This document shows, piece after piece, positions 19,858 through 34,029 of a stretch of DNA of 39,576 nucleotides. Location of the stretch: the IMG/VR virus record IMGVR_UViG_3300021960_000193, positions 1 through 39,576 of that record, one strand, 5' to 3'. Numbering within the stretch: position 1 is the stretch's first letter; each line of letters starts with the position of its first letter. The DNA comes from a virus. The translations under genes and the position numbers were made by a program. The notes under the pieces are model-generated. The model had not been told where the DNA came from, made no database searches, and saw nothing but the letters and a program-made list of their open reading frames with translations.

Positions 19858-19870
19858 CTTTGGGAGATGT

Positions 19871-19907
19871 GCTTACACTACTGCTACACTTTACACGTCC
19901 CCCCTTT
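19871..19907 (-). repeat. Repeated leader element, copy 1
   Basis: First of thirteen copies. The minus strand begins AAAGGGGGGACG and ends GTAGTGTAAGC. The right arm (GTGTAGC) no longer pairs with GGGAC, so the hairpin is degenerate here. It lies between the stop at 19915 and the start at 19857. Confidence 0.8.
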
Positions 19908-20674: not shown

Positions 20675-21010
20675 TCAAGCAAAGCGATAAGCACCATTCC
20701 ACATTGTGACTTCATTGTTGTCACGAACATACCAAACATGTTGCTTCTGAAAGATACCATCAGTCAGTGCATTACAGAACTCATTGATGAGAACATTCAA
20801 GCGAGATTTGGTAGTGTTCGATTCCCAACCTCCATCAAATACAGTCAGAGAAGTATCATCAACTTCAGCGATCAGATTATCATGAAGAAAGACAGAAGTT
20901 ACAACACATTTTTTATCATCATTGAAGAAGTTGATGATTTTAGTATTGTCAGACTTCCAATCAGTTTCAGACTTGATCGCTTCAATCATTTGGCGTTCGA
21001 TCTTACGCAT
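20675..21010 (-). CDS. Conserved cyanophage protein (111 aa), MRKIERQM family
   Basis: Begins MRKIERQMIEAIKSETDWKS and contains FDGGWESNTTKSRLNVL and FQKQHVWYV. These are hallmarks of a short protein family I recall in many cyanomyoviruses. The start follows an A-rich leader (ACTCAAAAAACTCAA) downstream of a repeated element rather than a Shine-Dalgarno site. Soluble, beta-rich by pattern. Function unknown. Confidence 0.88.
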   Translation of the reverse strand: MRKIERQMIEAIKSETDWKSDNTKIINFFNDDKKCVVTSVFLHDNLIAEVDDTSLTVFDGGWESNTTKSRLNVLINEFCNALTDGIFQKQHVWYVRDNNEVTMWNGAYRFA

Positions 21011-21034
21011 TTGAGTTTTTTGAGTGAGTGTTGT

Positions 21035-21071
21035 GCTTATGTAACTGGGACACTTTGAACGTCCCCCCTTT
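21035..21071 (-). repeat. Repeated leader element, copy 2
   Basis: Minus-strand AAAGGGGGGACGTTCAAAG, then TGTCCC and a CATAAGC tail. GGGAC and GTCCC can pair. It lies 8 nt after the stop at 21079 and 25 nt before the ATG at 21010. Confidence 0.88.
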
Positions 21072-21078
21072 GGATTAC

Positions 21079-21261
21079 TTAATGACGATCACTAATGTTC
21101 CAGGAAGTTGTGGGGGTATGTGATACAATACCAGCGCGAACTTTAGTGCGATAGTCTTGCTGTTCTTTCAACTGTTTCATATACTGTTGCATTGCAATTT
21201 GCACCGCAGGATCATTCTTTGCAGTGTCATTAAGTATAAACATATCAGTAGCGATTGTCAT
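21079..21261 (-). CDS. Small hypothetical protein (60 aa)
   Basis: The ATG at 21261 gives MTIATDMFILNDTAKNDPAV and a Gln/Lys-rich helix with MQQYMKQLKEQQDYRTK. It overlaps the preceding gene by 17 nt. A longer in-frame start at 21306 would overlap by 62 nt and is less likely. No strong ribosome site is seen for either. Function unknown. Confidence 0.68.
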   Translation of the reverse strand: MTIATDMFILNDTAKNDPAVQIAMQQYMKQLKEQQDYRTKVRAGIVSHTPTTSWNISDRH

Positions 21262-21433
21262 TGTTGAAAGGTGCATAAACTGCTTCAACTTCATCCCATT
21301 GAGCATCAGTCAGACTACCAACTTGTGCTTCCATGAAGTCATAAACCATACACCAATCTGCATCCATTTCATCAATGAATTGAGGGAGAGATTCGAGAGC
21401 AGAGTTAAAGATTTGCATTTGAGTGTCATTCAT
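21245..21433 (-). CDS. Small acidic protein (62 aa) starting inside the repeat
   Basis: The chosen ATG lies in the tail of repeat copy 3 and gives MNDTQMQIFNSALESLPQF. A start five codons later (MQIF) follows an ACTCAA leader like that of the 111-residue gene and is an alternative. An upstream in-frame start at 21484 would translate the whole repeat and is rejected. The protein is acidic, with several Trp and Tyr residues, and ends YAPFNNDNRY. Function unknown. Confidence 0.7.
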   Translation of the reverse strand: MNDTQMQIFNSALESLPQFIDEMDADWCMVYDFMEAQVGSLTDAQWDEVEAVYAPFNNDNRY

Positions 21434-21464
21434 ACTACTAGCACACTTTAAGCGTCCCCCCTTT
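21434..21464 (-). repeat. Repeated leader element, copy 3
   Basis: Minus-strand AAAGGGGGGACGCTTAAAG, then TGTGCTAGTAGT. The right arm has changed to GTGTGCT, so the stem has a mismatch. The next three bases are the ATG of the downstream gene. Confidence 0.88.
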
Positions 21465-21480
21465 GGATTAAGTAGTGAGA

Positions 21481-21720
21481 TCATTTAACATTCTCCATAA
21501 GATCGCTTAACACTTCCTCATCATAAAGATCTAGAATTTCTTCCTTAATTTCTTCCTCACTGCAAGATTGGTAGGAATCCATTAACAAATCATGTGCTAA
21601 TGTCATCAGGGTATCCATATCCATATCCTCGATAATTCGCTCACAATAATTATACTTAAACTGTGCAAGTTGTTCGTTGTTCATCATCTTTTGGTGAAGG
21701 TAATCTTTGATCAATGACAT
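21481..21720 (-). CDS. Conserved acidic protein (79 aa)
   Basis: The ATG at 21720 overlaps the stop of the upstream gene (TGATG) and gives MSLIKDYLHQKMMNNEQL. The core QFKYNYCERIIEDMDMDTLM and the acidic end (EEEIKEEILDLYDEEVLSDL) match a helical family I recall in cyanomyophages. A start at MMNNEQ (21687) is possible. Many acidic side chains suggest a protein-binding or DNA-mimic character, which is speculation. Confidence 0.8.
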   Translation of the reverse strand: MSLIKDYLHQKMMNNEQLAQFKYNYCERIIEDMDMDTLMTLAHDLLMDSYQSCSEEEIKEEILDLYDEEVLSDLMENVK

Positions 21721-21971
21721 CAGCAAGCGCAGGCAAGTCCAGAGTTAAAGAGTTGCGGTTCAGTGTGCATATCAGTCACAATGTAACCATAACCATCAAC
21801 CCTAGAATCTACCTCACGTTGGAAATCTTTCTTGTTAATGTAACGCTTGGATTGCTTACAGTTGGAGAAAGTAACGATCTTCAACATCAAACGATTGTGA
21901 ATAGTTCCATCCACAAACTTAACAGGATAGAAATCAACAATCATATTAGCATCTTTGGAGGTGAGTTGCAT
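21720..21971 (-). CDS. Small hypothetical protein (83 aa)
   Basis: Begins MQLTSKDANMIVDFYPVKF and ends HTEPQLFNSGLACAC, with two cysteines in its last three residues. Alternating beta pattern, no membrane segment. It starts 20 nt after repeat copy 4 and is coupled to the next gene by TGATG. Function unknown. Confidence 0.78.
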   Translation of the reverse strand: MQLTSKDANMIVDFYPVKFVDGTIHNRLMLKIVTFSNCKQSKRYINKKDFQREVDSRVDGYGYIVTDMHTEPQLFNSGLACAC

Positions 21972-21990
21972 TTAAGAGAATTGCGATTGT

Positions 21991-22027
21991 GCTTATACTA
22001 CAGGGACACTTTGCGCGTCCCCCCTTT
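21991..22027 (-). repeat. Repeated leader element, copy 4
   Basis: Minus-strand AAAGGGGGGACGCGCAAAG, then TGTCCCTGTAGTATAAGC. GGGACGC pairs with GTGTCCC (one G-T wobble) around a 5-nt loop. This is one of the most complete copies. Confidence 0.92.
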
Positions 22028-22028
22028 C

Positions 22029-22364
22029 TTAACGCATCAGAGCAAGTGCATCATCTTCAGAGAGACAATCTTCAGGCAGTTGGAGATTGCGAGCGCAAGA
22101 AACTGCATCGACAAAATTATCAAACTGTGCAAAGGTTTTCTGATTACCAACCCAGCAACCTTTGTACTCATAGATCATATACTCAACTGCAAAAACATCC
22201 AGTTTAGTGTTACGATCTACACTGTGCTTGATGTACACTTTACCGTCAGGACGAGTGTACTTGTCAAACACATTGGAGCGGAAAGTACGCTTAAAGTCAG
22301 TAGCAAACTCTGCGGTGAGATCAATGCTTTGAGCGAAGAGATTAGCGAAGTGAGTGTTGTTCAT
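22029..22364 (-). CDS. Hypothetical protein (111 aa) starting inside the repeat
   Basis: The only ATG near the start of this frame lies within repeat copy 5 and gives MNNTHFANLFAQSIDLTAEF. The core has KVYIKHSVDRNTKLDVFAVEY followed by a Trp-containing beta segment, and the C-terminus SEDDALALMR is acidic. Function unknown. The position of the start shows that the repeat can contribute coding sequence. Confidence 0.8.
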   Translation of the reverse strand: MNNTHFANLFAQSIDLTAEFATDFKRTFRSNVFDKYTRPDGKVYIKHSVDRNTKLDVFAVEYMIYEYKGCWVGNQKTFAQFDNFVDAVSCARNLQLPEDCLSEDDALALMR

Positions 22365-22395
22365 ACTACTAGGACACTTTAGGCGTCCCCCCTTT
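22362..22395 (-). repeat. Repeated leader element, copy 5
   Basis: Minus-strand AAAGGGGGGACGCCTAAAG, then TGTCCTAGTAGTATG. The ATG of the 111-residue gene is the end of the element. The preceding gene stops 8 nt upstream. Confidence 0.92.
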
Positions 22396-22402
22396 GAATC
22401 AG

Positions 22403-22543
22403 TTAGAACTTTGCATTGACTCCTATTACTTTTGCTTTCGGATTACGCGCAACTGCTGTATCCTTTGCATCCTGATAGTTTGCTGCTTGTACTTCTTCAG
22501 TGAAGACTTTTCCAGCAACGTATAACTTAACTTCGTATTTCAT
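22403..22543 (-). CDS. Conserved small protein (46 aa), MKYEVKLYVAGK family
   Basis: A 46-residue frame runs from MKYEVKLYVAGKVFTEEV to AKVIGVNAKF. It matches a very short beta-rich protein I recall in many cyanomyoviruses (MKYEVKLYV, an alanine-rich middle such as YQDAKDTAVARNP). The start overlaps the upstream stop (ATGA), showing translational coupling. Function unknown. Confidence 0.85.
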   Translation of the reverse strand: MKYEVKLYVAGKVFTEEVQAANYQDAKDTAVARNPKAKVIGVNAKF

Positions 22544-22704
22544 ACAGAGGGATTAACAGAGATTTCTTTGATGTTGAGTCCACAGAGTTGATTGTAGACA
22601 CGATTCAGTATAAGTTTGTCCGCAGTCTTTGCTTTGGATTTCTCATACCAAATGGTCACACATCCGTCGTTGGTTTCAACTTGAACGCGATAGTTTTTAG
22701 TCAT
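22540..22704 (-). CDS. Small hypothetical protein (54 aa)
   Basis: A 54-residue frame begins MTKNYRVQVETNDGCVTIWY and ends NIKEISVNPSV. It is linked by ATGA overlaps to the 20-residue membrane peptide upstream and to the 46-residue gene downstream, forming a coupled chain. Beta-strand pattern at the N-terminus, basic middle. Function unknown. Confidence 0.78.
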   Translation of the reverse strand: MTKNYRVQVETNDGCVTIWYEKSKAKTADKLILNRVYNQLCGLNIKEISVNPSV

Positions 22705-22763
22705 TTGTTAAGCGGAGTGAAGAACCAAAGAATAATTAAAGAACCAAGGATTAGAGTTGTCAT
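22701..22763 (-). CDS. Membrane micropeptide (20 aa)
   Basis: The frame encodes MTTLILGSLIILWFFTPLNK, almost entirely one hydrophobic helix. Its ATG overlaps the stop of the 83-residue gene (TGATG), GGAGG lies 10 nt upstream, and its stop overlaps the next ATG. The coupling and ribosome site argue that it is translated despite its size. It is either a tiny membrane peptide or a translational link. Confidence 0.62.
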   Translation of the reverse strand: MTTLILGSLIILWFFTPLNK

Positions 22764-23014
22764 CAGTAGTGTGCCTCCGAAGAATCAACCAGATCAGAAT
22801 ACTTTGCAATGCCATCATAGCACTTCTTTGCCATCAGATCATCACGCTCATCAACATATTGCTTGAGAAACTCGAAGCAATACTTGATACGCAACTCAGG
22901 TGCGATTGCAGCGAGTTGTTGTTGCTGACGCTTCTGATAGTTTGCGTTGTATGCAAACATTTCACGATCTTCGAGAGAGATGTTGTGAAACTTGCGTTCG
23001 GTAGTGTTGTTCAT
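22763..23014 (-). CDS. Helical hypothetical protein (83 aa) starting inside the repeat
   Basis: The ATG at 23014 lies in the tail of repeat copy 6 and gives MNNTTERKFHNISLEDREMF. A long in-frame extension through the repeat (to 23056) is rejected. The middle is Gln-rich (YQKRQQQQLAAIAPELRIKY) and the rest charged and helical. The same N-terminal MNNT occurs in the otherwise unrelated 111-residue protein at 22029. Function unknown. Confidence 0.78.
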   Translation of the reverse strand: MNNTTERKFHNISLEDREMFAYNANYQKRQQQQLAAIAPELRIKYCFEFLKQYVDERDDLMAKKCYDGIAKYSDLVDSSEAHY

Positions 23015-23045
23015 ATTACTAGGACACTTTAGGCGTCCCCCCTTT
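23012..23045 (-). repeat. Repeated leader element, copy 6
   Basis: Minus-strand AAAGGGGGGACGCCTAAAG, then TGTCCTAGTAATATG. Nearly identical to copy 5, with the start codon of the downstream gene at its end. Confidence 0.92.
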
Positions 23046-23048
23046 GCA

Positions 23049-23246
23049 TTAGTCAAGATCTTTGCGAAGATATTCTACAATTCTTGAGAGATCTTCGATT
23101 GCAGTGTTCATTGCAGATTTAGAATAACCAGTCGCAAAAGGATAGGTTTTTTCATAATCATCAGAGGTATTATCTACCGCATAGCATACATTCACTGCAT
23201 TGGTGAGACTATCAATCACTCGGATCAGTTTATCATCAATTTGCAT
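23049..23246 (-). CDS. Small hypothetical protein (65 aa)
   Basis: The ATG at 23246 has GGAGG at 6-nt spacing and gives MQIDDKLIRVIDSLTNAVNV. The ATG just before it (23249) overlaps the upstream stop and is a possible alternative. Helical and amphipathic, ending IVEYLRKDLD. Function unknown. Confidence 0.75.
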   Translation of the reverse strand: MQIDDKLIRVIDSLTNAVNVCYAVDNTSDDYEKTYPFATGYSKSAMNTAIEDLSRIVEYLRKDLD

Positions 23247-23248
23247 CA

Positions 23249-23437
23249 TCAACCTCCGAACATTTCATCAAAGAGAGGAGTTTCGTCAAATTGTTTCATT
23301 TCACGAAGTGCAACAAGGTGCTGAATGTGTGCGTTCATTGCATCAATTTCTCGCTGCAACTTTTCCTTCTTGAAGTTAATCTCCATGATGGAGCGGTTAA
23401 TCTCAACTCGGTCCATTTGTGCGTTAGTGTCATTCAT
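23249..23437 (-). CDS. Coiled-coil protein (62 aa) starting inside the repeat
   Basis: Starts in repeat copy 7 as MNDTNAQMDRVEINRSIMEI; MDRVEI (23416) is an alternative start. Residues 8-48 have a strong coiled-coil pattern (FKKEKLQREIDAMNAHIQHL). The C-terminus ETPLFDEMFGG is coupled to the next gene. Probably an oligomerising small protein; function unknown. Confidence 0.78.
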   Translation of the reverse strand: MNDTNAQMDRVEINRSIMEINFKKEKLQREIDAMNAHIQHLVALREMKQFDETPLFDEMFGG

Positions 23438-23468
23438 ACTACTAGCACACTTTAAGCGTCCCCCCTTT
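23435..23468 (-). repeat. Repeated leader element, copy 7
   Basis: Minus-strand AAAGGGGGGACGCTTAAAG, then TGTGCTAGTAGTATG. It matches copy 3 exactly over the core, including the mismatch in the right arm. The upstream stop codon touches its first base. Confidence 0.92.
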
Positions 23469-23935: not shown

Positions 23936-24304
23936 TCAACGAGCGTAAAGATAGGAACCTGCCCAATCACAACGCTCAAACATTTGCTCACGAGATTCAA
24001 TAATCAACACATTGTAACGCTCACCTTTAGCAGGTGCTTTTACACTGGCAGGTTTATACACAGAACCAGTCTTCTTATCAATGAAAGCGTGAATACTGTC
24101 ACGACGATCATCAATATGCATGAAGACTTTGTGATACTTACGACCCGAAGAATCAAGGGAGTAGAAGTAACCATCAGGAGCAGTCTGCTGGAGAGCATCA
24201 CACAGCATCAGACCATACTTAACAATGTTAAGTTCAATCGTGTTGCGGGCATCTTGCTGGGCAGCGTAGTCAGCGAAAGTTGTAGTCATTTCAGTTGTGC
24301 TCAT
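23936..24304 (-). CDS. Conserved hypothetical protein (122 aa)
   Basis: Two starts are possible: ATG at 24304, inside repeat copy 8 (MSTTEMTTTFADYAAQQ), or ATG at 24289 (MTTTFADY). The core has YGLMLCDALQQTAPDGYFY, RKYHKVFMHIDDRRDSIHAF and YKPASVKAPAKGERYN, a compact alpha/beta pattern I recall in a protein family shared by several cyanophages. A C-terminal Trp-Ala-Gly-Ser-Tyr-Leu-Tyr motif closes it. Function unknown. Confidence 0.82.
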   Translation of the reverse strand: MSTTEMTTTFADYAAQQDARNTIELNIVKYGLMLCDALQQTAPDGYFYSLDSSGRKYHKVFMHIDDRRDSIHAFIDKKTGSVYKPASVKAPAKGERYNVLIIESREQMFERCDWAGSYLYAR

Positions 24305-24335
24305 ACTATAAGGACACTTTGCACGTCCCCCCTTT
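24299..24335 (-). repeat. Repeated leader element, copy 8
   Basis: Minus-strand AAAGGGGGGACGTGCAAAG, then TGTCCTTATAGTATGAGC. GGGAC pairs with GTCCT with one wobble. It lies 3 nt after the upstream stop. Confidence 0.92.
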
Positions 24336-24338
24336 CAA

Positions 24339-25235
24339 TTACCATGCTTTCTCCATGATAAAGTTTGCACGGGAGAACTCTTCACGGTCAACTATTTTGA
24401 ACGTGCCAAACTTGTTGGTGATAACATAACCTTCATGCAGAGTTGGTTCATTACCAAGCAAGCAACCAATTTCATCAGTCTCATCAATGAAGCAGAACAT
24501 ATCATCCTTGATAGACTTAACGAGTCGCCACAATCTGATCAAGTTGATGTCACAATCGCATTTTTCTGCAATTTCATCTTCATTCACGGACTTTCCCTCA
24601 CGAATACAATCATTGATTGCCTTCTTGATCTTTGCTGCTTTAGTTTTATTCACGAACTCGCAGAGTGTAGACATCTGCTTGGCAAACTTACAAACTTCAT
24701 ACAAATCTTCGCGGTAAGGATACAATTCCACCGAAGGTTGCACAAACAAACACTTTTTAGTGCTGATGAGTTTGGATTGCAAAGGAAATGCATATGCATC
24801 GCGCAGATCATACAATGCATTGTAAATCGTGTGAGGTGCGATGATAATATCCTGAACAACTATTTCAGGAAAGATGTAAGTGATCGTGTTGGGGCGAAAA
24901 CTATCACTACCGCCATACCCAATAAAATCACCTTGAATGATAGACTTTGTGCGAGGAAGACAATCAAAGCAAGCGTGAAGAATACGCGCAACTTTACCCT
25001 CATAGTGCGAATCAATTTCTGCATGAGAATGTGCAATGCGAATCTTTACTTTATTGAAGACTGCTTTAGTGCCTACAAAGAATCTACCAGTCGCAGGATT
25101 AGTGCCCCAAACAATAGCAGGAGCGCCATCCATCTTGGTGCTGATGAAACTATCTTGCTCACAAAACCAATCAAGAGGTGATAGATCACCAGTCAAGATT
25201 ACGTCTTCTGGGTGTTCAAGATGGAGATTCTTCAT
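24339..25235 (-). CDS. Ligase-like covalent nucleotidyltransferase (298 aa)
   Basis: Residues 32-39 read STKMDGAP, a KxDG motif I with candidate nucleotide-accepting Lys34. It is followed by GRFFVGTKAVFNK and, at 101-108, QGDFIGYG, which resembles motif III. Near the C-terminus HEGYVI (267-272) resembles motif IV and TFKIVD (278-283) motif V. The order and spacing fit the polynucleotide ligase / RNA ligase superfamily, though no extra domain is present. It lies between repeat copies 8 and 9. Its substrate (nicked DNA, cleaved tRNA or other) cannot be read from the sequence. Motif V has one Lys instead of the usual KxK. Confidence 0.7.
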   Translation of the reverse strand: MKNLHLEHPEDVILTGDLSPLDWFCEQDSFISTKMDGAPAIVWGTNPATGRFFVGTKAVFNKVKIRIAHSHAEIDSHYEGKVARILHACFDCLPRTKSIIQGDFIGYGGSDSFRPNTITYIFPEIVVQDIIIAPHTIYNALYDLRDAYAFPLQSKLISTKKCLFVQPSVELYPYREDLYEVCKFAKQMSTLCEFVNKTKAAKIKKAINDCIREGKSVNEDEIAEKCDCDINLIRLWRLVKSIKDDMFCFIDETDEIGCLLGNEPTLHEGYVITNKFGTFKIVDREEFSRANFIMEKAW

Positions 25236-25245
25236 TGCGTTTCAG

Positions 25246-25281
25246 TCTATACTATAGGGACACTTTATGCGTCCCCCCTTT
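25246..25281 (-). repeat. Repeated leader element, copy 9
   Basis: Minus-strand AAAGGGGGGACGCATAAAG, then TGTCCCTATAGTATAGAC. The hairpin is complete. The ATG of the ligase-like gene follows 10 nt later, after GAAACGCA-type sequence and without a Shine-Dalgarno site. Confidence 0.92.
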
Positions 25282-26776: not shown

Positions 26777-26783
26777 TGACGAC

Positions 26784-26819
26784 GCTTATACTATAAAGAC
26801 ACTTTGCGCGTCCCCCCTT
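26784..26819 (-). repeat. Repeated leader element, copy 10
   Basis: Minus strand: AAGGGGGGACGCGCAAAG, then TGTCTTTATAGTATAAGC. Its first base touches the methyltransferase stop codon (TGA). Unlike other copies it is followed by a second, larger hairpin. Confidence 0.88.
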
Positions 26820-27772
26820 CAAGTCATCGCAGCAATGAGAGGACTTGTGGTTTCTTGTATTGATTTCTCAAATAACATTTTACCATCGTTGTTAATATCA
26901 AATAAAATGTAATTTCTATTTGTAGCAATAGCACTTCTGCCTACAGTTCCAGACCCAGCACAAGGATCTAAAACAATAGAGTTTTGATTACTGAACATAT
27001 TAACAATTCTATTGAGAAGTGCAACAGGTTTCTGTGTTGCATAATCCATCTTCTCAACTCCTTGGATCTGTTTTATATCAGACCATACATCTTTAACAGG
27101 GATTCCATCCATCTCATCCAGAAACTTCTTCACTCTAGGAATACCTGTGATTGGTGAATACTCAAGGCGATTGTCATCATGAAGCATCTGCATCCTCTCT
27201 TTTGAGATATGCCATTGGAGATCATTTCCATTCCATTCATATCTCAAATTGGGGCGAGATACAACATTAGGTTGACGATTAACCAATGCAGATGTGTTGT
27301 ATTTCATATTGCGAATGGGACACATCTTTGCCTTCTTCACAGTATCATCATCGTATGCTTTGTGTTCAGAATTGTAGATAGATTCTGCACCTTTCTGATA
27401 AACAATGATCGTATCGTGATTGCGTTGGAGTTGCTTTTTTGACTTGTGGTTGCCTCCAGAGATCCAAACAATCTCATTCTTAAATCTTTTCTCACCAAAG
27501 ATATCATCAAGAACAATACGAATATGATGAGAAATCTTTGGTTCTACATGCACAACAATGTTGCCACAATCGGTGAGAACGCGATGACATTCTTCCAGCA
27601 AAGGACGCATCAACAATTCGCGATAATCCGCACTGGAAGTAAATCTATCATCAAAGTGATAGAAATCTCTTCCAGTGCAATAAGGTGGATCAATATAAAT
27701 TAGATCCACCGTGTTTGCATCAACTTGCTTCAGCAGTTCTCTACTGTCACCGATAGTGTATTCATTTAGCAT
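26819..27772 (-). CDS. Beta-class DNA adenine-N6 (or cytosine-N4) methyltransferase (317 aa)
   Basis: Motif IV DPPY (residues 28-31, IYIDPPYCTGRDFYHF) precedes motif I LDPCAGSGTVG (about 268-278), which is the beta-class order. Between them lies a large target-recognition region with EIVWISGGNHKSKKQL and a TQKPVALLNRIV helix before motif I. The ATG at 27772 overlaps the preceding nuclease-like gene by 11 nt. An in-frame TTG at 27784 is less likely. The pair suggests a modification enzyme tied to a cleavage activity. Target site not readable. Confidence 0.92.
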   Translation of the reverse strand: MLNEYTIGDSRELLKQVDANTVDLIYIDPPYCTGRDFYHFDDRFTSSADYRELLMRPLLEECHRVLTDCGNIVVHVEPKISHHIRIVLDDIFGEKRFKNEIVWISGGNHKSKKQLQRNHDTIIVYQKGAESIYNSEHKAYDDDTVKKAKMCPIRNMKYNTSALVNRQPNVVSRPNLRYEWNGNDLQWHISKERMQMLHDDNRLEYSPITGIPRVKKFLDEMDGIPVKDVWSDIKQIQGVEKMDYATQKPVALLNRIVNMFSNQNSIVLDPCAGSGTVGRSAIATNRNYILFDINNDGKMLFEKSIQETTSPLIAAMT

Positions 27773-28295
27773 TGTTGAGAGCAATCAGAACCTCCTTTGC
27801 GCGACCAGCATACTTTTTGCGGACAGATGCAGGGACAGAACCTACACAATATCCAGGCATATTCTTGTCTTCCAGTTCATAACTAGGAACAGCAAGAAAC
27901 TCCCAGTCAGAAATATCTTCGTGACCTTTAGGAATAATAAACAGTATAACATCAAATGAGTCTACTGCATAGCGAACCTGACCATTCTTTGCACCATTGT
28001 TTGCATTTTTGCCAGTGGTGCGGCGAGTCTGCTCCATGTGCAAAGTATTGCCACCGCGATACTTAACTTGGATACGCAGACCGTTAGAAGAAAGGCGGTC
28101 ATATTTCTCCTGCTGACCATCAAGGTCGTCAGGAGACTTGTCGTTTTCAATACCACATTCATCGCGCAACCATTGCGGGGCGATAATGCGTTCGGTTGGA
28201 AATGCAAGAAACTTGCCAATCTCTCGCGTGTCGCCTTCAGTGATGAGTTCTTCAAAACCGAGAGCAACGATTTCGGAAAGTGTAGTAACTCCCAT
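27762..28295 (-). CDS. Candidate PD-(D/E)XK nuclease, restriction-endonuclease-like (177 aa)
   Basis: A 177-residue protein with an N-terminal helical part, then KYDRLSSNGLRIQVKYRGGN (D66 and Q76-x-K78), a QTRRTTGKN segment and a hydrophobic strand SFDVILFIIP. This is the order expected for a PD-(D/E)XK core in which Gln replaces the usual Glu. The start has an excellent site, AAGGAGATCACTG before ATG. It overlaps the methyltransferase gene by 11 nt, as many restriction-modification pairs do. The assignment is from pattern only and needs structural confirmation. Confidence 0.55.
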   Translation of the reverse strand: MGVTTLSEIVALGFEELITEGDTREIGKFLAFPTERIIAPQWLRDECGIENDKSPDDLDGQQEKYDRLSSNGLRIQVKYRGGNTLHMEQTRRTTGKNANNGAKNGQVRYAVDSFDVILFIIPKGHEDISDWEFLAVPSYELEDKNMPGYCVGSVPASVRKKYAGRAKEVLIALNNAK

Positions 28296-28318
28296 CAGTG
28301 ATCTCCTTGTGTTTGTAT

Positions 28319-28352
28319 CTATTAGAGGGACATTTTAAGCGTCCCCCCCTTT
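28319..28352 (-). repeat. Repeated leader element, copy 11
   Basis: Minus-strand AAAGGGGGGGACGCTTAAA, then ATGTCCCTCTAATAGAT. It has seven G residues and the tail has lost the TATAAGC motif. It lies 5 nt after the upstream stop, and the downstream start has its own Shine-Dalgarno site. Confidence 0.85.
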
Positions 28353-28357
28353 GTTTG

Positions 28358-29533
28358 TCAAATTATTTCTTCTTCAGTATCAAATGCCATTTCAAATGGT
28401 TCATCTTCATCTTCAAGTTGATTCATGCACCAGATTTCCATATTCAAGTCACTCAACTTCTTGCGATAACCATCAAGAATAGATGGTTGAATTACTTGAC
28501 CAATAGGTGCAAGAATGTTGTCTCTCCTTATCTGCCAAGAATCGTTAAGTCTTTTTTTGAATTTGATTCTAGACTCAACAATTTTCTTTGCATTGGTTGA
28601 GTTGTCTTTATTCCAGAGAAGAACTTTCACAGTCTTTGGTGGAGTTGGTGGCAGAACTTCTTCAAGAGGTGTTTTCTCTTTTGGATTTTCTCTCTCACAA
28701 ACTACTCTCAAAAGTCTGTCTGCATAAGTATAGCAATATCCATCATGATCCCTGATCGGCACAACAAAATAGTAGTTGTTGTCATCCTCAACGTTGTGAG
28801 GTTTCCAATCATCAGATTCTGCGATGAAATTATCAAGATCTTCTTCGTTGTTGTTGATAGTTAATTGACCAACAACTTGTTCAGGATCCCGAAGAGAATC
28901 AAGAATCTTCGTCACAATTCTCTCAACAACTGCGGTGTTTTCATTATAACGAGTATAGCAACCCATGTGCTTCAAAAGATTCCTGACAAAAGATCTTGTG
29001 ATGAGATCAAAGTCTTCATGCCTATCTTTTTCTACTTCAATAATATTGACACACGCAGTTTCAAACTGATAGTCTTTCGTATCTTCAACGATAGGACCAT
29101 AAACATTTCCCCACATCGCTGCCATTGTTAGAATGGAATGATCTAGGAAAGAATTATAAATCCCACCATTAGAAGGAAAAACTCTTTTATATTTTGCAGA
29201 AGGAACTTCTTCAATCACTGGATTCTCACGACAAACTTTAAGTGTGTGCCGTCGATCAAATACTTCCTTCCAATCACCAATGGGCATAAAAGGTATGGGC
29301 CAAGATGTACGATCCCACCCGTAGAAGAGAGAACCTTTGAGTCCTACAATCTTCTGGGAAACTGTATCTTTGGTGCCGCGAACTGTATTATCCCCAACAC
29401 GGAGTTCGCTTACCTTACTCATTTCCAAATTATCTAATTCAAGAAATGGAAAGTTAATGTAAATATCGTCTTCTGAATTGACGACAAGATCTTCGATGGA
29501 GAAGTTGCTTCCCCAAGTTAATTTTTTTGCCAT
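28358..29533 (-). CDS. Uncharacterised 391-aa protein, possible ParB/sulfiredoxin-like segment
   Basis: Begins MAKKLTWGSNFSIEDLVVNS after a good site (GAGGTAATT) and a consensus promoter. Residues about 65-115 contain LFYGWDRTSWPIPFMPIGDW and EVFDRRHTLKVCRENP, which faintly recall the PI...GRHR core of ParB-like domains. The middle has a helical segment and the C-terminus is basic then very acidic (EDEDEPFEMAFDTEEEII). I do not recognise the family with confidence. Its neighbours are the nuclease/methyltransferase pair and the internal-head-protein candidate. Confidence 0.78.
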   Translation of the reverse strand: MAKKLTWGSNFSIEDLVVNSEDDIYINFPFLELDNLEMSKVSELRVGDNTVRGTKDTVSQKIVGLKGSLFYGWDRTSWPIPFMPIGDWKEVFDRRHTLKVCRENPVIEEVPSAKYKRVFPSNGGIYNSFLDHSILTMAAMWGNVYGPIVEDTKDYQFETACVNIIEVEKDRHEDFDLITRSFVRNLLKHMGCYTRYNENTAVVERIVTKILDSLRDPEQVVGQLTINNNEEDLDNFIAESDDWKPHNVEDDNNYYFVVPIRDHDGYCYTYADRLLRVVCERENPKEKTPLEEVLPPTPPKTVKVLLWNKDNSTNAKKIVESRIKFKKRLNDSWQIRRDNILAPIGQVIQPSILDGYRKKLSDLNMEIWCMNQLEDEDEPFEMAFDTEEEII

Positions 29534-29611: not shown

Positions 29612-30139
29612 CTATTTGGAGGTGAACTTGTGCTTCAGTTCTTTCTCCGACTTCTTACCAGTTGATTGAAGAACCAAATCACGCAGAACTCTCTCACCTT
29701 TCTTATACAATGCTTTGCGCTCTTTGGTAGTCTTACCAGATGCTTTTTGTGGTTTATACTTTGGCGAAACTTCAGTCTTTTTCTTCTTCGCAAGCAGTTC
29801 AGATGCAGACTTTGTTTTCTCTCCTGCTTCTCTTCTCTTGCGCTCCAAGTATGCTTTGCGTTGTGCTTCTTTTGCACTCAATGCAGCAGATCCTCTTTCC
29901 TTTTCAGGTTGCTGAACTCTGGTCTCTGTCTTACGTTGAGTGCCAATATCTTTGCGTGGTTTGTATTCCTTTGCGGGTTCCATCTTACCACCGCCTGCTG
30001 CTTTCATTCTGCGGCGTTCTGGTGCTGTTTTCTTACGTTCTGCACCAATTCTTCCACCTTCACCAGTACGACGGATTTGTGATGATCCCATCACGTCCTT
30101 GTCGTATGCTTCGGCAATAAATTGTGAGAAGGTTTTCAT
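29612..30139 (-). CDS. Basic protein with T4-type capsid-targeting N-terminus (175 aa)
   Basis: The first 11 residues, MKTFSQFIAEA, match the capsid-targeting peptide of T4 internal proteins (MKTYQEFIAEA) at 8 of 11 positions. The I-A-E tripeptide of the gp21 prohead-protease cleavage site is kept, predicting a cut after Glu10. The rest is rich in Lys, Arg and Ala (RKAYLERKRREAGEKTKS), suited to DNA binding inside a head. It has its own promoter behind a strong hairpin. Likely role: an internal head protein packaged with the DNA and possibly injected. Internal proteins are not retained in sequence between phages, so the rest cannot be matched. Confidence 0.72.
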   Translation of the reverse strand: MKTFSQFIAEAYDKDVMGSSQIRRTGEGGRIGAERKKTAPERRRMKAAGGGKMEPAKEYKPRKDIGTQRKTETRVQQPEKERGSAALSAKEAQRKAYLERKRREAGEKTKSASELLAKKKKTEVSPKYKPQKASGKTTKERKALYKKGERVLRDLVLQSTGKKSEKELKHKFTSK

Positions 30140-30159: not shown

Positions 30160-30188
30160 ATAGTATATTTAGATATGGGAAAAGTCAA
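30160..30188 (-). promoter_or_regulatory. Sigma70-type promoter for the internal-protein candidate
   Basis: The minus strand has TTGACT (30188-30183), 17 nt and TACTAT (30165-30160). It follows the hairpin at 30191-30218 by 2 nt, so terminator and promoter form a compact joint. The ATG at 30139 is about 20 nt downstream. Confidence 0.75.
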
Positions 30189-30190
30189 TA

Positions 30191-30218
30191 GGGGACAACC
30201 AGTTTCCTGACTGTCCCC
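30191..30218 (-). terminator. 12-bp hairpin with GAAA tetraloop between transcription units
   Basis: On the minus strand GGGGACAGTCAG and CTGGTTGTCCCC form a 12-bp stem (two G-T wobbles) around GAAA. It follows the stop of the 68-residue gene. The tract after it is TATTGACTTTT rather than a clean T-run, so termination strength is uncertain. Confidence 0.7.
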
Positions 30219-30563: not shown

Positions 30564-30572
30564 AAGTTCGGT

Positions 30573-30610
30573 GCTTACATAATTGGAACAGTTTAGGCGT
30601 CCCCCCTTTT
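30573..30610 (-). repeat. Repeated leader element, copy 12
   Basis: Minus-strand AAAGGGGGGACGCCTAAAC, then TGTTCCAATTATGTAAGC. The arms are more diverged (GTTCC), leaving a weaker stem. It overlaps the upstream stop by two bases. Confidence 0.85.
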
Positions 30611-31944: not shown

Positions 31945-32102
31945 CGTATTTCTTTACTTGGTGGTTGCATCAGTCTATGAATTGCTTGCTCGTGTGCATC
32001 AAACATCTTTTGATCACGTTGAATTAGAAATACATTCCAACCAAGAATGACAGCAAACCCAATCATTCCTGCGAGAATATATTTGCGGTTGGTGTTAGTC
32101 AT
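31941..32102 (-). CDS. Small membrane protein (53 aa)
   Basis: Starts MTNTNRKYILAGMIGFAVIL, one hydrophobic helix after a short basic N-terminus, then a polar helix (QKMFDAHEQAIHRLM). Coupled by ATGA to the 134-residue gene upstream and to the 37-residue peptide downstream. Function unknown. Confidence 0.76.
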   Translation of the reverse strand: MTNTNRKYILAGMIGFAVILGWNVFLIQRDQKMFDAHEQAIHRLMQPPSKEIR

Positions 32103-32503
32103 GCTGCAAGTGCTCCAGAGGGGATTTCAACGATTTCGGGGCGTTTGTTGTCCTCAAACTCGTTCATATTGTAGCACACCCATTCACCATTGCGGAAGAT
32201 GTAGGAGTATTCTTCGCCAAAAGCAAGAAACACTTTCAGGTTCTTGTCAATACGAGGAGGGCAATCATCACCACGTTGAGAATAATACAGCGGACCTTGT
32301 GCAACAGTTTCATTATTGAAACCAGCATTAGTCCAAGCAGAACTCATATCACCACCGTCAATAAGTTCAGCAGCAAGTTCTTTGCTGTTGTAATGAGTCT
32401 TCAGGATGCGACCCAACCAAGAAGGATATCCATCCCAATGGTGATAAACAGACAGAATAGATTCATCTGCAAGTTGAATACCAATGCGGGAGCGAGTTGC
32501 CAT
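32099..32503 (-). CDS. Conserved phage protein (134 aa), MATRSRIGIQ family
   Basis: Begins MATRSRIGIQLADESILSVY and continues HHWDGYPSWLGRILKTHYNS, which matches a protein found widely in cyanophages and other phages (MATRSRIGI...S.Y.H.DGYP...G..L...Y). A mid-part ELIDGGDMSSAW and a Tyr-rich end follow. Likely a small enzyme or binding fold, but unassigned. It starts 10 nt after repeat copy 13, without a Shine-Dalgarno site. Confidence 0.88.
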   Translation of the reverse strand: MATRSRIGIQLADESILSVYHHWDGYPSWLGRILKTHYNSKELAAELIDGGDMSSAWTNAGFNNETVAQGPLYYSQRGDDCPPRIDKNLKVFLAFGEEYSYIFRNGEWVCYNMNEFEDNKRPEIVEIPSGALAA

Positions 32504-32513
32504 TGCGTTTGTT

Positions 32514-32549
32514 GCTTACACTACAGGGACACTTTGCGCGTCCCCCCTT
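32514..32549 (-). repeat. Repeated leader element, copy 13
   Basis: Minus strand: AAGGGGGGACGCGCAAAG, then TGTCCCTGTAGTGTAAGC. The stem is intact. The element begins inside the halogenase stop codon and is the last copy toward high coordinates. Confidence 0.92.
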
Positions 32550-34029
32550 AACCATACCTGACTTTTAGTGATTGTGAAAACTCATTGAGAAACTTGGAAT
32601 GGTGGGGTAAAGTCTTTCTCTTTTCATTTTTTTCAAAATAAAATTGTTTTAATACTTCTTCAGACTGATCATCATCCACTTCATCTCTTTTTTTACAAAC
32701 TTCAAATCCCAACTGACACAACCAAACTGACCAATTATGTCCAGTAAAGATGCCCATGCCTTTATTGGGTAGAGTATACTCATTCATCTTAAGATCATCA
32801 ACAAAAGACAACAATCTACTTGTTTCTTGATAATTATCTTTTACCCATTCCCAAAACTTTCCATCCCTTTGAGTATTCCAATAGTGCATATTAACAAAAT
32901 CAACAGAATCCTCAAAATAATATTTCATAGAGGAATTGAACACTGAAGGATCAACATCGGTAAAGAATCCAGTTCTAATTGGATTAGCAAGTTGCCAGAT
33001 TCCAGCACAAATTAAAGTGATTCCAGTGCTCTCTAAAGGTTCAATGAATCCAGCAGATAATCCAATAGAAATTACATTCCCCTGCCACATATTCTCATGA
33101 TAATATGGAGTCCAATCAATCACCTTAAGTGATTCTCTATCTACTCTATTATTCCAATATTTTACATAATAATCTTTTGCTTCTTCTATATCTGTAACTG
33201 ATCTATTGAATACCAACCCAGATCCAATACGACTGCGAACAGGTATGTTCCAAATCCACCCGTGATCTACAGCATCACAAATTACATAGGGATTTCTTTC
33301 TTTGTCAACATCATTATATGGAATGTGACCAGCAATAGCAGTGTCACAAAATAATCTATCTCTCAAATTAAGAGGTTGAGATTTAGGACTGATGACTCTT
33401 TTGAATCCAGTGCAATCAATAAACAAACTTGAAGTAATAACTGTACCATCTTCAAGAGTAATATTTTCTACATTATCATTATCAAATTTTACATTAACGA
33501 CTTCTTTCTTTATTAACGTAACATTTTTCCTTGATAGTAGTTTCTTCTGTAAGAATTTAACTAATTTTCCACAATCAATATGGAAAGCATAAACGTCAAG
33601 ATTATCTGGATCTACAGAATTATCAAAGACTGAAGACTCATACAGTTCAGTTGCATAAGTTTTATAGTCATAATGTTGATGCTTTGACCATAGATCTTGT
33701 AATTCAGCATTAAGTGGTTTAACGTGTGGAAAATAAAAAGGGTGCCAAATATCTTCACCATCTTTATGCCAGTTAGTGAATAAAATACCAGACTTTAATG
33801 TAGCATCTATTTCATTAAACCATTCATTGATTGGTATGCCACTATCATCCATAATATCTTTGAAAGATAATGTAGTTGCTTCACCAACTCCTACGGGATT
33901 TCCATCCTTCTTATCAATTACAACTATATCTACTCCAAGAGGAGCATTTTTACTCAAATATGCAGCAGTCAACCAAGCAGAAGTGCCACCGCCGACAATA
34001 GTTATTTTTTCTATTCTATTAGATTTCAT
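32548..34029 (-). CDS. Flavin-dependent tryptophan halogenase (PrnA-like, 493 aa)
   Basis: The FAD-binding motif GGGTSAWLTA is at 13-22, GVGEAT at 47-52, the conserved Lys at 79 (TLKSGILFTNW, equivalent to PrnA K79), and the halogenase signature WIWNIP at 258-263. The substrate-side motif GFIEPLESTGI lies at 327-337. All diagnostic residues are present and the length is typical (about 500). The enzyme chlorinates or brominates an indole substrate using reduced FAD, oxygen and halide; the phage would need a host flavin reductase. Relatives are known in cyanophages as auxiliary metabolic genes. It has its own promoter and terminator joint. Confidence 0.92.
   Translation of the reverse strand: MKSNRIEKITIVGGGTSAWLTAAYLSKNAPLGVDIVVIDKKDGNPVGVGEATTLSFKDIMDDSGIPINEWFNEIDATLKSGILFTNWHKDGEDIWHPFYFPHVKPLNAELQDLWSKHQHYDYKTYATELYESSVFDNSVDPDNLDVYAFHIDCGKLVKFLQKKLLSRKNVTLIKKEVVNVKFDNDNVENITLEDGTVITSSLFIDCTGFKRVISPKSQPLNLRDRLFCDTAIAGHIPYNDVDKERNPYVICDAVDHGWIWNIPVRSRIGSGLVFNRSVTDIEEAKDYYVKYWNNRVDRESLKVIDWTPYYHENMWQGNVISIGLSAGFIEPLESTGITLICAGIWQLANPIRTGFFTDVDPSVFNSSMKYYFEDSVDFVNMHYWNTQRDGKFWEWVKDNYQETSRLLSFVDDLKMNEYTLPNKGMGIFTGHNWSVWLCQLGFEVCKKRDEVDDDQSEEVLKQFYFEKNEKRKTLPHHSKFLNEFSQSLKVRYG

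Follow-up and report, generated by a model that had tools for sequence, protein, structure and literature searches.

The 39,576-nucleotide stretch considered here (IMG/VR record IMGVR_UViG_3300021960_000193, hereafter the window) represents part of the genome of a T4-like cyanophage (Kyanoviridae) whose nearest isolates are the Synechococcus phages SynMITS9220M01 (M01), S-SM2 and Bellamy. It carries 13 copies of a short repeated element, spread over 19.87 to 32.56 kb; these copies, and the window features listed below, all lie on the minus strand. The element is very likely a phage promoter, composed of a phage-specific box, a constant spacer (AAAGTGTCCC) and the -10 hexamer TAGTRT. In the model proposed here, host RNA polymerase is probably recruited by a basic phage protein, fam2, the C-terminus of which would read the box. 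Genes would be packed tightly against the array, and a single base change, A24 to G, would turn the edge of the -10 region into an ATG at element positions 22-24 (ATG22). This ATG would be used on mRNAs read through from upstream; transcripts from the element itself would begin translation at a second in-frame ATG, at position 37 or beyond, where one is present. The fam2 protein would be made late, probably packaged, and then injected. The model as a whole is given a probability of about 0.66. It is built on sequence statistics, namely the element itself, the homogeneity of its box, covariation with fam2, in-frame use of ATG22 and a late-promoter motif, from which we infer promoter activity, binding, activation rather than repression, and injection.

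Promoter-like features of the element

Element positions are counted from the A in GGGGGG-A-CG as position 0, so that AAAGTGTCCC occupies 6-15 and TATAGT 16-21. One box-based and three core-based scans of IMG/VR, together with isolates, gave 1,332 distinct copies. A -10-like TAGTRT lies at positions 18-23, at a constant distance from the upstream box, in some 1,300 copies; T18 and A19 exceed a frequency of 0.9, and T23 reaches 0.85 in the unbiased set and 0.95 in the full set. T21 and the purine at 22 are almost invariant. The TANNNT expected of a -10 hexamer is thus found at a fixed place upstream of genes. A TTGACA-like -35 hexamer at 16-18 nt was not found in the elements, and its place is taken by the phage-specific box. 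Arrays contain about 10-16 copies per genome in one hypervariable small-gene region, and in 355 of 358 loci all copies point the same way. They keep to one region of about 10-18 kb in S-SM2, M01 and long contigs, except for one distant hit with two mismatches.

The placement of start codons is also informative. Gene starts other than ATG22 show an edge at positions 36-37 and a mode at 39-40, with about 20 exceptions at 24-35 among 497, and G is depleted in the leaders from position 28 onward. Both features fit a promoter with an RNA start expected near positions 28-31.

The box comprises 13 nt at positions -7 to 5, about -37 to -25 relative to the expected start. Given a -10 at 18-23, its centre (position -1) falls at about -31; this location near -30 matches that of the activator box of T4 middle promoters, a likeness of position and not of sequence. 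Box identity is 0.88 within loci against 0.45 between them (0.26-0.28 at flanking control positions), and 62 consensus types occur among 254 loci. One contig, L016, has mixed boxes (two GGGGGGACG and four of the ACAGGGRGCC type) together with a fam2 of the GGGGGGACG class, and may represent a phage in mid-switch or a chimeric contig. Across all loci, the triplet at positions 15-17 (CTA, TAG or CAG), immediately ahead of the -10, is phage-specific as well and may reflect the host sigma factor or polymerase.

The ATG within the element

A first-pass annotation of this DNA had noted that the ATG at the end of copies 3, 5, 6 and 7 opens the next gene, giving otherwise unrelated proteins an MNDT or MNNT start, and that copy 8 gives MSTT. 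These observations hold. ATG22 is present in five of the 13 window copies: copy 3 (21427..21464, ATG at 21433) opens MNDTQMQIF... (21245..21433), copy 5 (22358..22395, ATG at 22364) opens MNNTHFANLF... (22029..22364), copy 6 (23008..23045, ATG at 23014) opens MNNTTERKFHNI... (MNNTT; 22763..23014), copy 7 (23431..23468, ATG at 23437) opens MNDTNAQMDRVE... (MNDTN; 23249..23437) and copy 8 (24298..24335, ATG at 24304) opens MSTTE-MTTTFADY... (23936..24304). Pairwise comparison of these five proteins gave no significant similarity (best E 0.25). At the corresponding places, GenBank annotates the same starts in S-SM2 (42711, 53466, 54389 and 55323) and M01 (45208, 46141, 46879 and 48601).

ATG22 is found in 668 of the 1,332 distinct copies, and in 627 of these it opens a frame of at least 40 codons. 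In a set not selected for ATG, it is present in 108 of 294 distinct copies. Within that set, a downstream internal start shares the frame of ATG22 in 58 of 63 cases, while in copies lacking the ATG such a start is in phase with position 22 in 59 of 151 (Fisher p=1e-13); with one vote per protein family, the figures are 24/29 and 20/59 (p=2.8e-5). The stretch between ATG22 and the second ATG varies in length, and the frame is kept. This excess of in-frame starts indicates that ATG22 is translated, that is, read by ribosomes on some mRNA.

The common N-terminus has a simple origin. Downstream of TATAGT the element consensus is RTAAGCAC, and A at 22 with G at 24 yields ATG AGC AC. or ATG AAC AC., which encode M-S-T or M-N-T. 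In the shared MNNT, MNDT or MSTT, codons are read out of the promoter edge (its discriminator and initial transcribed sequence), and the tetrapeptide is no peptide signal. For the family of copy 8, the PHROG profile begins at residue 6 of the window protein (phrog_818, profile 1-127 matching residues 6-122), and the DUF6267 family start MKNTHLEHPED is present with or without the element. The N-terminal extensions that gene callers add to unrelated phage proteins, such as MSTTE, are explained by the element ATG.

With an RNA start near 28-31, ATG22 would be missing from the promoter's own transcript. The first-pass annotation had rightly pointed out that, with ordinary promoter geometry, RNA would begin downstream of the ATG, the only one in copies 5 and 6; in these two the element ATG is the sole nearby start. 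In copies 3, 7 and 8 another in-frame ATG follows 5-7 codons later (codon 6 in copy 3, codon 8 in copy 7), and among ATG22 genes generally the second in-frame ATG peaks at positions 37, 40 and 43. The apparent puzzle dissolves if ATG22 serves mRNAs read through from upstream. Read-through from upstream elements could supply the ATG; from 21.2 to 25.3 kb no strong terminator-like site was found on this strand, and T4 middle genes are also expressed through extension of early transcripts (PMC6024815). That ATG22 serves read-through mRNA is, on balance, the favoured explanation.

A protein that covaries with the box

Locus proteins were clustered into families, and each family was tested for tracking of the box. 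One family, fam2, of about 200 residues and with a pI of about 10.4, stands out among the large families, with a rho of 0.37 against about 0 for the others. It is encoded in S-SM2 as SSM2_065, in M01 as M01_053, and in the window at 29612..30139, where the gene specifies a basic protein of 175 residues, the predicted box-binding factor, whose C-terminal 40 or so residues covary with the box. When two fam2 proteins are 85% or more identical, their boxes agree in about 95% of cases, with a smooth fall at lower identity. The signal lies in residues 136-175 (rho 0.53 per 25-residue window, 0.56 for the whole C-terminus), a level reached in none of 1000 Mantel permutations. The N-terminus gives a rho of 0.19 and a partial rho of -0.04, while the C-terminus retains a partial rho of 0.53 given the N-terminus. 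The strongest link between a protein column and a base is that between box +2 and residue X in [ST]-X-x-E-R: Arg accompanies C at +2 in 65 of 68 cases (three of them read by eye) and G in 0 of 35, as in ACTTGGATCC with Arg and ACTTGGATCG with Thr.

The fam2 link emerged from a screen of many families and was at first a result of the discovery type; isolates found later then served as a check. P-TIM68, S-B05, AG-345-O18 and AG-345-E15 all have both fam2 and the repeats. P-TIM68 has 13 copies with GTTAGTTACC-type boxes on a different core, S-B05 has two copies, and in both the C-terminal class of fam2 matches the box. Neither fam2 nor the element was found in Bellamy. Taken together, the covariation makes recognition of the box by fam2 highly probable, the firmest element of the model. 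Searches of fam2 against Pfam, PHROGs, NCBIfam and PDB sequences gave no match, and it does not correspond to a recognisable known regulator in those collections.

The fam2 genes also bear signs of late expression. The hexamer TAAATA occurs 5-60 nt upstream of 96 of 97 fam2 genes, mostly at -33 to -28 (30166..30171 in the window), and is mostly at 0-2% in other array families, with 25% in fam5. In S-SM2 it precedes 10 of 18 late structural genes and one of 12 replication genes. It is close to NATAAATA, the late-promoter motif reported for T4-like cyanophages (PMC2984593). A sigma70 promoter upstream of fam2 was also considered; its enrichment is small (11% vs 5% at a score of at least 10), and it was superseded by the TAAATA motif. 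In the window, a stem-loop search placed a terminator-like structure upstream of fam2 at 30191..30218, and the first element upstream of the gene is copy 12 (30572..30609).

The N-terminus of fam2 (MKTFxEFxxEA; pattern MK[TS]F.[EQ]F) resembles the capsid-targeting sequence of T4 IPII, MKTYQEFIAEA. The key T4 targeting residues are 4 and 7 (PMC9026906), and at these positions F4 and F7 of fam2 are nearly invariant. A cleavage motif near the N-terminus takes the form [LI]xE in 68% and [LIVM]xE in 80%. An N-terminus of this kind, together with the late motif, is also found in the cyanophage cytidylyltransferase T4-GC190, whose S-SM1 counterpart has been detected in virions (PMC3037559). On the strength of the late motif, the capsid-targeting type of N-terminus and the T4-GC190 parallel, we propose that virions probably carry fam2 and inject it.

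That fam2 acts specifically as an injected activator is put forward more tentatively, at somewhat below even odds. A further and slightly more doubtful step is that each phage injects a private activator, switching on only promoters with its own box as the DNA enters, so that promoter addresses would act as a self/non-self key and a filter on gene exchange. If this is true, the box and the C-terminus of the activator evolve together so quickly that nearly identical genes lie behind different boxes, and the addresses would distinguish self from non-self between co-infecting phages.

Alternative explanations

Several observations weigh against the model. About a third of the copies with an in-frame ATG (199 of 627) have no second ATG nearby, and under the promoter model their own promoter therefore cannot express those genes. 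Contig L016 carries mixed boxes, AG-345-E15 breaks the Arg rule (Arg with G at box +2), and the fam2 C-termini of contigs L177 and L237 are divergent. For 46 of 105 fam2 genes no element was found within 900 nt upstream, although some contigs end there. If RNA synthesis began at positions 20-22, where T21 and the purine at 22 lie, ATG copies would give a near-leaderless mRNA with the ATG on their own transcripts; this would directly explain the in-frame ATG and the genes without a second one, and would suit the near-invariance of T21 and purine 22. However, TATAGT would then fall at -6 to -1, a use not known for sigma70-type polymerases, no annotated S-SM2 or M01 gene is called a phage RNA polymerase, and G depletion begins at position 28, not 22. 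Such a start is improbable, and a T7-like polymerase reading of CTATAG is retained just as part of it. It could equally be that a late-made box binder is a repressor, or a stoperator-like factor, that shuts off the array late in infection. Its late-promoter motif and the overlap of the box with the -35 region would suit this role, and comparable diversified arrays of sites are known for the repressors of Cluster A mycobacteriophages (PMC6550527). Yet the elements lack a TTGACA-like -35, suggesting that the promoter needs help, and a repressor with a capsid-targeting N-terminus would reach the next cell ahead of early expression; a repressor is judged unlikely, if less so than the alternative start.

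The first-pass annotation had argued for a role at the RNA or translation level instead of a promoter, the repeat acting within the mRNA as a leader, structured or bound by protein, that controls the initiation of translation. The repeat does abut start codons and its ATG is translated, and the sole candidate hairpin, a 5-bp GGGAC/GTCCC stem, can form fully in 248 of 266 GGGGGGACG copies. Full pairing is available, however, in 0 of 44 GGGGGGTCG, 0 of 353 TCACC-box and 0 of 165 GGATC-box copies, no compensatory change keeping a helix was found across element lineages, and an Rfam search of the element gave no match at the gathering score. Lineages unable to form the stem rule out an RNA hairpin as the element's function. 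The ATG also occurs at two very different distances (22, or at least 36), with TAGTRT conserved at either, and the partner with which the box covaries is the C-terminus of a protein. An RNA-level role is now very improbable. The same annotation had also suggested that the repeat moves with, or is captured by, coding sequence. A mobile element spreading as a unit with the first codons of genes could be read from copies 3 and 7, which have GTGTGC and AATGACACT in common, and copies 5 and 6, which have AACAACACT. The position-wise profile disfavours the element as part of a copied coding unit: across the 254 loci, within-phage excess identity lies mainly in the box and positions 15-17 and is gone by about position 36. 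Of orthologue pairs with 95% identity or more, only about half (0.53 and 0.45) have the same box in the two largest families preceded by the element; in a third, smaller family all six such pairs do. Terminal features are absent and the orientation is single, and mobility of this sort is the least credible of the alternatives.

Other features of the array

Of the remaining window copies, 1 (19870..19907; GTGTAAG), 2 (21034..21071), 4 (21990..22027) and 9 (25244..25281) lack the ATG. Copy 2 precedes the MRKIE gene (20675-21010; phrog_554). Copy 9 precedes the DUF6267 gene MKNLHLEHPED (24339..25235), whose ATG is at element position 37 here and at position 22 in S-SM2 and M01. Copy 11 (28314..28351) is a weaker match, and copy 13 (32513..32550) precedes a gene at 32099-32503. 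Some element leaders have an attenuator-like stem-loop soon after the expected start, as in the leader of copy 10 (26783..26820) at 26772-26751 (CCTTTACAATCGTCTGTAAGGG), in S-SM2 (51956) and in M01 (42562).

Several neighbouring genes are also of note. Within 26819-28295, a DNA methyltransferase adjoins a gene placed where S-SM2 has an annotated type II restriction enzyme. A cyanophage gene at 32548-34029 is like Tryptophan halogenase (phrog_2928, E 8e-105). The 391-residue protein at 28358-29533 has a sub-threshold match to the poxvirus late transcription factor VLTF3 (E 0.041), probably by chance.

Relation to known systems

The promoter-early stem-loops (PeSLs) of T4-like phages are defined by a conserved stem-loop with an early promoter. 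No conserved stem-loop is present in the element; what it has in common with PeSLs is that these too are short promoter motifs, repeated within the hypervariable parts of T4-like phage genomes (cited in PMC4503421). The corresponding gene region of Bellamy (L084), which is without the element, has another repeated motif, TGTATATTAAAGAGTCAAAGGAAC, which comes with hairpins and is closer to a PeSL. The start-associated sequences (SAS) and extended SAS of Cluster K mycobacteriophages are likewise repeats directly upstream of start codons, in one orientation and at non-structural genes, and part of the repeat varies by subcluster (PMC3203893). The SAS holds a Shine-Dalgarno core, whereas the element overlaps the ATG with a -10 instead: AGGAG is not found in it 3-7 nt before the start, where positions 15-21 read CTATAGT or TAGTAGT. 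Among the papers listed by a literature search for the motif with the box letters, all were unrelated.

In the Cluster A mycobacteriophage repressor and stoperator system, asymmetric multi-copy sites and their protein also diverge together (PMC6550527). There the protein is a lysogenic repressor, whereas the sites described here bear a -10 and lie at the gene starts of lytic cyanophages. The T4 internal head proteins offer a parallel for fam2, which is basic and has an N-terminus like that of IPII, and the injected T4 protein Alt modifies the RNA polymerase of the host (PMC9026906). In the sources consulted no known internal protein is described as sequence-specific, whereas the C-terminus of fam2 tracks a DNA box. 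A residue-level DNA code may be readable from natural variation, and cultured phages that bear the element include S-SM2, SynMITS9220M01 and P-TIM68.

Cyanomyoviruses are reported to lack motA and asiA, and their early and middle transcription without MotA, AsiA or Alt has been described as unclear (PMC2984593); candidate promoters and a candidate factor can now be named. A search of S-SM2, M01, P-TIM68, S-B05 and Bellamy with PF09114 (MotA) gave no match, but its controls were also silent. An analogy is offered by the T4 middle promoters (MotA/AsiA), where a phage activator site near -30 replaces the -35 hexamer, the -10 is that of the host, many copies are present and the genes are also expressed via read-through (PMC6024815). 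The element departs from that system in its hypervariable box, and fam2 in matching no known family and in having a late-promoter motif.

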